DNA of 49,283 bases from a virus: positions 1 through 49,283 of the IMG/VR virus record IMGVR_UViG_3300007276_000077, one strand, 5' to 3'. Shown piece after piece: positions 18,365 through 20,149 of the stretch. The stretch's first letter is position 1; the number at the start of each line of letters is the position of its first letter. Both the position numbers and the translations under genes were made by a program. The notes below the pieces were generated by a model. That model did not search any database. It saw only the letters and a list, made by a program, of their open reading frames with translations, and had not been told where the DNA came from.

Positions 18365-18400
18365 AATAGTCTCTTTTCAAGTTGTGCGCTTGTGCGCTTG
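18365..18400 (-). promoter_or_regulatory. Shared leader of the 17816 gene
   Basis: Minus strand: GCGCACAAGCGCACAACTTG, then AAAAGAGA before the ATG, like the leaders at 15725 and 16632. Further upstream, AATCACTACTGACTGAT (18462-18478) resembles the phage operator. Confidence 0.5.
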
Positions 18401-18796
18401 TTTGTCAGCGTGTCTTTGCTGATGTCTGTTTCTCGCATTTGTCGTGACGTATAGCAATCACTAAATCACTACTGACTGATCACGAAATGTTACAGATATG
18501 CGTCACGCTATTGAGCGCTTCTAAGCGCTTCTAAGCGCTTGCGTGACGTTGCGCTGTGCTAGTCTATCAATTCACGTCATCGCGCTTAGACACGCGTTGC
18601 AGCGCGTCTAACGATGCATTCCACTGCGCTGATATGCTGCGCGCGATTGATGCACGAAGTCTTAGAGATAAAACGCGATGTTGATGGGGATGCCCTCCTC
18701 CGCGCCAAGCGTTTTAAAACATATCCACCGCAGAGAGATATCCCGGTTTCATGTCCACCGCCCTGCCCTGCCCTGCCACCCGATCACCCGTCACCC

Positions 18797-18828
18797 AGCT
18801 ACCCAGCCAAATAGCTATATGCGTGGAT
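18797..18828. repeat. Octad array O3
   Basis: Four units in 8-bp register (AGCTACCC first, AGCTATAT third), just upstream of the operator of the 18900 operon. Confidence 0.65.
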
Positions 18829-18899: not shown

Positions 18900-19226
18900 G
18901 TGACCAAAATTACAGTGCCATCTGATAACCCGATCAAGGGTTACACGAAACCTACACCCGAACAGGTCGCATTGGTCAACGAGAACAAGGTGCTGGAAGA
19001 ACTCTGCCTCCGCCAGATCGATCGCATCAGCCTTACGAACTCCGTTCGTAACCCTGCTGTTGATCCACGTTGGTTAGCATTGGCACGCACCGGCATCCAG
19101 CAATCATTCATGGATCTGAACCGCGCTGTGTTTCAGTCGCAACGTATCGAGGGCGACCTCGACGCTCTACCGTTGATCGCGTTTCTGGCATCAGATCCAG
19201 ATGTGGAGACCAAAAATGGGCGTTGA
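18900..19226 (+). CDS. Acb2/Tad1-like hairpin-domain protein (candidate cyclic-nucleotide sponge)
   Basis: 108 residues, GTG start after AAGGAGCC. The core DPRWLALARTGIQQSFM then DLNRAVF (55-78) is two helices with the pattern of the Acb2/Tad1 hairpin domain of phage proteins that bind immune signal nucleotides. In Acb2 this blocks CBASS, and in Tad1 it blocks Thoeris. The protein is close to the usual small size. It is followed by RyR and Ntn-hydrolase genes in one operon. The family call rests on motif memory, not a search. Confidence 0.65.
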   Translation: MTKITVPSDNPIKGYTKPTPEQVALVNENKVLEELCLRQIDRISLTNSVRNPAVDPRWLALARTGIQQSFMDLNRAVFQSQRIEGDLDALPLIAFLASDPDVETKNGR

Positions 19227-19560
19227 TGTCGATAAGATCGCAGAGACTTGCCACGAAATTAACCGCGTTTACTGCGAAGGTATTGGCGATATGAGCCAGC
19301 CTAAATGGAAAGATGCACCGGAATGGCAGCGCGAGAGCGCACGCAAAGGTGTGCTGTTTCGCATGACCAACCGCAACGCCGGCCCTTCCAACTCTCACGA
19401 GAACTGGCTCAAGGACAAGATTGCCGATGGTTGGGTTTGGGGCGAAGTGAAAGATCCTGAACTCAAGACGCATCCGTGCATCCGGCCTTATCGGCAGCTG
19501 CCTAAAGAGCAACAGGTTAAGGATGATCTGTTCTGCACCCTCGTAAAGTTGCTGGCATGA
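19216..19560 (+). CDS. RyR-domain protein
   Basis: 114 residues, almost entirely one RyR domain: IAETCHEINRVYCEGIGD, SQPKWKDAPEWQ, NSHENWLKDKIADGW, KTHPCIRPYRQLP and KDDLFCTLV. The name comes from ryanodine receptors; bacterial and phage copies have been proposed to sense nucleotide ligands. The start overlaps the previous gene by 11 bases and its stop overlaps the next start (ATGA). Likely function together with the hairpin protein in handling host signals; inference. Confidence 0.85.
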   Translation: MGVDVDKIAETCHEINRVYCEGIGDMSQPKWKDAPEWQRESARKGVLFRMTNRNAGPSNSHENWLKDKIADGWVWGEVKDPELKTHPCIRPYRQLPKEQQVKDDLFCTLVKLLA

Positions 19561-20087
19561 CCACGATTGCTTACAAAGACGGCCTGCTGGTCTCTGATAG
19601 TCGCGCCTACTCCGGCAGCTCTTTACCGATCGGCAACAAGCGTAAGATGATTATTCTGGATGATGGCAGTGCGGTTGCTGTCTCTACGACGCAGCCTGGT
19701 TTGGCCGAGAAGATCATGCGCTGGTATGACGATGTGCTGCACTGTGAAGAGGATGAAGAGGTCCAGATTCCGCAAGTCGAGGGCAATAACTTCTACATGC
19801 TGCTGATTGATGCGGATGACGGCGTATTCTTTAGCAACGACAGTATGGATCTCTCTGGGCCGTTGACTGCGGATTACTTCGCGATCGGCTCTGGCTCGGA
19901 TTATGCAATGGGCGCGATGGCGATGGGTGCAAATGCGATCGAGGCTGTAGCGGCTTCGATCAAGCATGATGTTTATTCCGGCTGGCCTTTGCTGGTGATC
20001 AACCGAAACGAGAATACCGAGATGTGGCTGAGTGAGGCGGATTATCATGCCGCGCACGCAGAGCCTGCTCTTATCGAGACTCCGTAG
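19557..20087 (+). CDS. HslV/proteasome-like Ntn-hydrolase
   Basis: 176 residues. MTTIAYKDGLLVSDSRA at the N-terminus places Thr2 as the likely nucleophile after Met removal, as in HslV and proteasome beta subunits. FAIGSGSDYAMGAMAMGANA (about 115-134) is the conserved glycine-rich segment of the family, followed by AIEAVAASIKHD. No AAA unfoldase is seen nearby, so it may work alone, use a host ATPase, or be a non-proteolytic relative. Last gene before the terminator 20111. Confidence 0.82.
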   Translation: MTTIAYKDGLLVSDSRAYSGSSLPIGNKRKMIILDDGSAVAVSTTQPGLAEKIMRWYDDVLHCEEDEEVQIPQVEGNNFYMLLIDADDGVFFSNDSMDLSGPLTADYFAIGSGSDYAMGAMAMGANAIEAVAASIKHDVYSGWPLLVINRNENTEMWLSEADYHAAHAEPALIETP

Positions 20088-20110
20088 CGCCTCCCTTGCG
20101 ATGGATAACT

Positions 20111-20149
20111 GGGTGTTGGTGAGATATCTCAACCAACACCCTTTTTTTT
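20111..20149 (+). terminator. Rho-independent terminator
   Basis: GGGTGTTGGT / ACCAACACCC 10-bp arms around the palindrome GAGATATCTC, then eight T. Ends the 18900-20087 operon. Confidence 0.93.

Follow-up and report, generated by a model that had tools for sequence, protein, structure and literature searches.

What would three small overlapping genes, coding for a hairpin protein, a RyR-domain protein and a proteasome-like hydrolase, contribute together to the phage that carries them? A first-pass annotation of this locus proposed that they form a counter-defence module in which one protein binds an immune signal, one senses it and one destroys a target. The window, i.e., the whole stretch of DNA analysed here, is an entire virus record of 49,283 bases (IMGVR_UViG_3300007276_000077). 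Its helicase-ParA region resembles that of the Rhizobium phages RHEph10, V1VFA-S and B1VFA and of plasmids such as pLM21S1 (115-122 kb), and terminase, portal and major head genes are present. According to the accessible part of PMC5537653, pLM21S1 is a phage-plasmid related to RHEph10. Because of the helicase-ParA likeness and the terminase, portal and head genes, the window is read here as a fragment of a RHEph10/pLM21S1-like phage-plasmid, which on these sequence grounds would be an alphaproteobacterial phage. The three genes are flanked on one side by a stretch that has no convincing gene and on the other by a convergent parA operon.

Table 1. Features of the three-gene operon and the main evidence for each
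Feature	Position	Strand	Evidence
Acb2-type hairpin protein, 108 aa, GTG start, AAGGAG upstream	18900..19226	+	PF24729, profile, fold, residues
RyR-domain protein, RyDEP family, 114 aa from ATG 19216	19216..19560	+	PF02026, four aligned residues
Proteasome-like Ntn hydrolase, PPH/RPC type, 176 aa	19557..20087	+	PHROG_1040, fold, residues
Intrinsic terminator, stem-loop 20111-20141 then T8 (20142-20149)	20111..20149	+	RNA fold, sequence

The three open reading frames do overlap on the plus strand as first described (Table 1). For the RyR gene the tabulated start is preferred because it is preceded by GGAG, the alternative being an ATG at 19201, and the start of the PPH gene shares an ATGA overlap with the RyR stop codon. 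The strong terminator assigned to the operon is equally real: the stem-loop has a folding energy of -25.5 kcal/mol (z -4.88) and none of 200 shuffled sequences folds as well. A consensus terminator scanner does not list it, and the two matches which that program returns upstream, at 18384-18424, correspond to the number expected by chance. The operator of its own that had been attributed to the operon found no support. The sole promoter-like match is located inside the first gene (19080-19107) and is within chance (1 found against 1.7 expected), while the palindrome TAGCTA recurs at 18812, 20172, 20878, 21086, 22124 and 22140 around the neighbouring par region and parA operon and is therefore not private to these genes. 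Six of the nine copies in the window, often in the form ATAGCTA, fall within 3.4 kb around the parA operon, and over the whole window the motif is not enriched (9 found against 10.5 expected). The cluster near parA is a candidate partition or repressor site. A further element, three 15-nt direct repeats (CGCTTCTAAGCGCTT-like) with a 10-nt spacing, is found upstream of the operon at 18506-18540 and is possibly the binding site of another regulator.

Acb2 is a hexameric inhibitor of CBASS that binds cyclic di- and trinucleotides. The first protein of the operon matches the Acb2/Tad1 hairpin family PF24729 at 7.6e-14 (52.1 bits; curated cut-off 27), so that the family assignment suggested earlier is borne out. 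Compared with the PDB as one sequence, the protein matches Acb2 only weakly (E 0.055), whereas a profile built from 20 family members reaches Acb2 of phage p26 (8h2j) at 2e-15 and T4 Vs.4 (7uq2) at 2e-11. Tyr15 and Lys30, which are invariant in 62/62 aligned relatives, align without a gap and with identical spacing with Y11 and K26 of Acb2, which we take to be pocket residues in contact with the cyclic dinucleotide. The predicted fold (pLDDT 84.5) follows the Acb2 plan of a short N-terminal segment and an antiparallel helix pair, with long helices at residues 20-46 and 56-77 and no N-terminal beta domain. In a Foldseek search of the model, ranks 1-8 are all Acb2 or Vs.4 (probability 0.99-1.00; E 0.0098-0.065, none below 0.001). 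VIA superimposes it on these proteins with Z scores of 8.5-8.8 (72-77 residues at an rmsd of 2.3-2.8; the first unrelated row has Z 7.5), values that helical folds can attain by chance and that make the fold alone not decisive. The protein had been called Acb2/Tad1-type; the first half of that label holds, given the profile match and the fold hits, and the second half does not. Tad1 possesses an N-terminal antiparallel beta-sheet part before its hairpin, as described in the accessible part of PMC12043709. This part is missing from the model, and the family profile reaches Tad1 at E 0.086 or weaker, in the hairpin region alone, so that Tad1 membership is rejected. The first protein is Acb2-type and, by its sequence, would be a sponge for cyclic di- or trinucleotides.

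The RyR assignment of the second protein was right: it matches PF02026 at 2e-12 (47.6 bits; cut-off 27.4), with 3.6e-13 in a repeat profile search. The role of a separate sensor that had been proposed for it is unlikely, since phage RyR proteins, as far as the available portion of a recent preprint goes (PMC13232231; 28-29 May 2026), cleave or sequester 2'cADPR and 3'cADPR and the window protein retains their four key residues. In the same portion of the preprint, gp78 of mycobacteriophage DyoEdafos (RyDEP) is a glycosidase that opens both signals and sits with NARP1 inside an NAD-related evasion operon; six of the eight homologs tested bind 2'cADPR/3'cADPR without cleaving them, two of these six overcoming Thoeris, and the remaining two formed no stable complex with the signals. 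When gp78 is aligned with the window protein and a further 11 RyR proteins of phages, H60, W63, H85 and D102 of the window (numbered from 19219) correspond to H75, W78, H100 and D117 of RyDEP. Each of these four residues is found in 84/85 aligned phage RyR sequences from the fetched loci, the remaining row being a gap. The second protein is thus a member of the RyDEP family, but membership is no guarantee of signal binding because two of the eight tested homologs formed no stable complex.

Whether such a protein would cleave the signal or merely retain it cannot be read from these positions, because cleaving and non-cleaving homologs share them. A catalytic glycosidase like that of DyoEdafos, feeding ADPR into NAD+ resynthesis, seems unlikely. 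The His and Asp of the dyad are indeed present, and 3/12 family records (L330, L331 and L332) encode a NAPRTase that resembles Namat, with 34-35% identity to DyoEdafos gp79. However, RyDEP was the only one of the tested homologs to cleave despite the conservation of these residues, at least in the part of PMC13232231 that is accessible; the window protein is only 31% identical to it; and the NAPRTase is absent from the window, itself a fragment, and from the L203 and L231 records. It is nearer to RyR proteins from phages of Pectobacterium (50% identity) and Ruegeria (48%), from which two characterised sponge types come, although the proteins compared may differ from the accessions tested. From these sequence comparisons a sponge is the better guess for the window protein. 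Elsewhere, in Vibrio phages and one contig of IMG/VR (L104:2686-3354, L109:2707-3363 and L099:3650-4339), a single protein combines the RyR domain with Phage_gp49_66 (PF13876), which may be another nucleotide-related domain worth testing.

The third protein had been described as HslV-like. Its proteasome-like fold is borne out, its identity with HslV is not. It matches the PHROG_1040 'peptidase HslV family' at 2.6e-29 and the Pfam Proteasome model with 18.8 bits, under the cut-off of 22.4. At E 0.1 no HslV family model of NCBIfam matches, the best model being TIGR03690 with 20.3 bits against a cut-off of 191.9, and HslV was rejected on this ground. The predicted fold (pLDDT 94.1) has BPH (5ovs) as its best Foldseek match at 3.4e-9, among 709 matches at E 0.001 or better that comprise BPH and proteasome beta subunits, and structure comparison gives Z scores of up to 18.4. 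The accessible part of PMC8665760 describes PPH and RPC as proteasome homologs of phages and their hosts that keep the proteasome-like core with Thr1/Ser1, Asp17 and Lys33 and lack the second helix H2; PPH have about 140 residues, and RPC carry a C-terminal extension. In the window protein the equivalents of Thr1, Asp and Lys are intact (T2, D14 and K30 of the open reading frame), and among 49 relatives Thr or Ser follows Met1 in 49/49, and D14 and K30 are each conserved in 49/49. The model, judged by eye, has one helix (49-62) at the H1-H2 position, followed by a loop to residue 78. Because of the Thr after Met1, D14, K30 and the single helix, the third protein is, on sequence and model, an intact member of the PPH/RPC group and not HslV. 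That part of PMC8665760 gives no function for PPH and describes no partner ATPase or adaptor, and in the open-licence literature we found neither a function for PPH nor a second paper on PPH in phages. A second protease family, 'peptidase S14' (ClpP), which seemed to occupy the same slot in pLM21S1 and two other plasmids, was dropped since all three proteins match the PPH profile; the pLM21S1 protein has no Pfam match. PPH genes with this label lie at L335:18730-19353, L336:4127-4636 and L339:3548-4000.

Do these genes belong together elsewhere? A survey of gene neighbourhoods supports the pairing of hairpin with PPH and also the placement of an inserted RyR gene between the two. Relatives of the hairpin protein occur in 18 GenBank phage records, in 10 of which a PPH gene starts no more than 3 bases from the hairpin match; all 10 are RHEph10-like Rhizobium phages and two of them are the same phage. 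Most of the relatives examined have the PPH gene immediately next to the hairpin gene, whereas in the window and two other contigs (L203 and L231) RyR is placed between them, in the same order. A first search for RyR in hairpin records, run without a working control, gave 0/17; a search with the window as positive control found it in 3/12 family records, namely these three. The terminases of L203 and L231 are 75-76% identical to that of the window, but among the three contigs the module proteins share only 50-53% identity for the hairpin, 53-68% for RyR and 39-44% for PPH. In L203 a small additional gene (L203:4279-4626) separates hairpin from RyR, and part of it is related to the N-terminal extension that the RyR protein of L231 carries (L231:4258-4809); no Pfam family passes its cut-off here. 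Among the loci searched, the arrangement of all three genes is confined to this one phage family. RyR may have entered the family once or more often: the hairpin and PPH trees have long branches, and the PPH tree and the joined tree place the window with the outgroup L030. The gene that precedes the hairpin in the Rhizobium phage RHph_X2_26 (L115:2423-2962) is annotated as TIR; Pfam identifies it as DUF1937 plus DUF4406, and a TIR domain was rejected.

The pairs reach further than the triad. The 84 distinct IMG/VR loci retrieved with the hairpin as bait comprise 7 with hairpin and PPH, 3 with hairpin and RyR, 2 with all three and 72 with neither partner. Every partner lies within 800 bp on the same strand (5/5 RyR, 9/9 PPH); under uniform placement in the fetched flanks, the probability that all would lie within 1 kb is about 0.002 for RyR and about 1e-5 for PPH. 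RyR genes are found in 287/50,697 GenBank phage records, so that five RyR neighbours among 84 loci are far above what rarity alone would give, bearing in mind that the collections differ and that the relatives are not independent. Hairpin-RyR pairs (L215, L245, L259 and L144; RyR comes first in L259 and L144) are found in what appear, by terminase sequence, to be unrelated phages and in either order: the window terminase has no match in L215, L245 and L259 and a weak one (3.3e-5) in L144. With Pfam, L215 and L245 were confirmed for both domains, L259 for RyR and L144 for the hairpin. With RyR as bait the hairpin turns up in 4/84 loci (one strong match and three weak ones with E above 1e-4) and PPH in 0/84. 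Cellular genomes retrieved with the hairpin contain PPH in 2/23 loci (L274 and L278) and RyR in 0/23. Adjacency of hairpin and RyR probably arose several times, and that of hairpin and PPH probably at least twice, in at least two phage groups.

PPH genes often lack a hairpin neighbour. PPH baits recover the hairpin in 13/80 loci, all within one of 19 PPH clusters, and a family-like PPH bait recovers it in 16/43; conversely, 67/80 and 27/43 PPH-bait loci have no hairpin. A strong statistical case for hairpin-PPH linkage across many PPH lineages was dropped because the 13 cases fall in a single cluster and the others mostly come from one phage family. These numbers bear on a reading in which the parA-side slot is an accessory-gene hot spot, its genes sharing a position and a transcript yet acting independently, with a PPH unrelated to defence signals (such as a hydrolase of virion assembly or one acting generally in late infection). 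The slot is variable, containing hairpin and PPH, all three genes, PPH alone or none: of six plasmid relatives, three have hairpin and PPH in the fetched stretches (pLM21S1, pRlX6 and p5), one from Shinella has PPH alone and two from Methylobacterium have neither. In Pseudomonas-type phages, too, the gene upstream of PPH varies, the hairpin being one option, and elsewhere PPH often follows apparent terminase, portal and head genes (neighbours judged by eye and not by profile). Such a hot spot has to account for hairpin and PPH genes that are adjacent in at least two phage groups and overlap, or nearly so, in most RHEph10-like cases; because they overlap, translational coupling is suggested. 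We consider it a serious alternative whose chances fall somewhat short of even.

We favour, with a probability of roughly 0.7, a translationally overlapping three-gene counter-defence cassette of a phage-plasmid, made up of a CBASS sponge, a binder of Thoeris signals and a co-expressed PPH. The hairpin protein would sequester the cyclic di- and trinucleotides of CBASS, the RyR protein would sequester or, less likely, hydrolyse the 2'cADPR/3'cADPR of Thoeris, and the PPH, with its active-site residues intact, is placed for co-expression with both. Ligand binding, inhibition of the two defences and any counter-defence role of the PPH are what we infer. Counter-defence, as first suggested, thus accounts best for two of the genes, and for the PPH such a role would be conjecture. 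Instead of binding, sensing and destroying, the operon most likely soaks up CBASS signals and soaks up or cleaves Thoeris signals, with a hydrolase in addition that might destroy a target.

In our view the RyR protein does not serve the other two as a sensor, and neither a fusion nor another indication of one joint machine was found. An arrangement of that kind, with the sponge or the RyR protein as a ligand-gated or adaptor part of a small compartmental PPH protease that degrades defence proteins only when the signal is present, appears very improbable. Conserved adjacency and overlap would suit it, and the relation between the L231 RyR extension and the extra L203 gene implies that parts have been fused and rearranged. 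However, in the surveyed loci PPH is fused neither to a hairpin nor to RyR, each component is also found where the other two are absent, and no partner ATPase or adaptor figures in the accessible part of PMC8665760. It is hardly more probable that the PPH is a counter-defence enzyme matched to the sponges, which would remove proteins activated by the signal or those that punish sponge carriage. Its overlap with, or abutment on, the sponge gene in most family members examined speaks for a dedicated role, and its frequent occurrence without a hairpin, after apparent terminase, portal and head genes, speaks against one. A hydrolase directed at a sponge-punishing guard is conceivable because Panoptes is a guard of this type: according to the accessible part of PMC12657218, sequestration of its decoy nucleotide by Acb2 or Tad1 sets it off. 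If true, sponge and peptidase would be a two-layer answer to signalling immunity, and the viral proteasome homolog would have a first function.

Each component of the operon is known, and the combination, together with the link of PPH to signal sponges, appears not to be in print, in keeping with the first-pass annotation, which had not seen it described as a unit. Among open-licence papers we found none that joins Acb2, Thoeris and RyR and none that joins anti-CBASS, proteasome and phage-encoded; the available portion of the RyDEP preprint (PMC13232231) contains 0 occurrences of Acb2 and 0 of proteasome. If the favoured reading is right, one operon holds inhibitors of two separate signalling immunities, CBASS and Thoeris, and the RyDEP family gains a recurrent genomic partner in Acb2-type sponges, which several unrelated phages encode before or after the RyR gene. 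PPH, the viral proteasome homolog, would likewise be linked with a signal sponge in two or more groups of phages, and its role would become directly testable.

How does the operon compare with known systems? With Acb2 (Pseudomonas phage p26, 8h2j; T4 Vs.4, 7uq2) the first protein shares the hairpin domain, the predicted fold and the positions of the pocket Tyr and Lys; it is 26-32% identical to these proteins in structural alignments and differs from Acb2 in being shorter between the conserved ends and in a C-terminal tail of about 25 residues. With Tad1 (Thoeris anti-defence 1) it has just the C-terminal hairpin in common, the beta-sheet part being absent here. The RyR protein resembles RyDEP, as presented in the accessible part of PMC13232231, in its PF02026 domain and in keeping the equivalents of H75, W78, H100 and D117, but it is encoded between a hairpin sponge and a PPH and not inside NARP1. 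The third protein is like the PPH/RPC proteins in the accessible part of PMC8665760 in its modelled proteasome-like fold without H2, the Thr after Met1 and the conserved Asp and Lys. It differs from PPH in its length (176 aa and not about 140, sizes being compared by description), its C-terminal extension and its place beside a signal sponge, and given this length and extension it is possibly RPC-like. As a whole, the operon recalls the RyDEP-NARP1 operon of DyoEdafos, in which RyDEP is likewise joined with other evasion genes in one operon; the partners there make NAD+, whereas here they are a sponge-like hairpin protein for other signals and a PPH.
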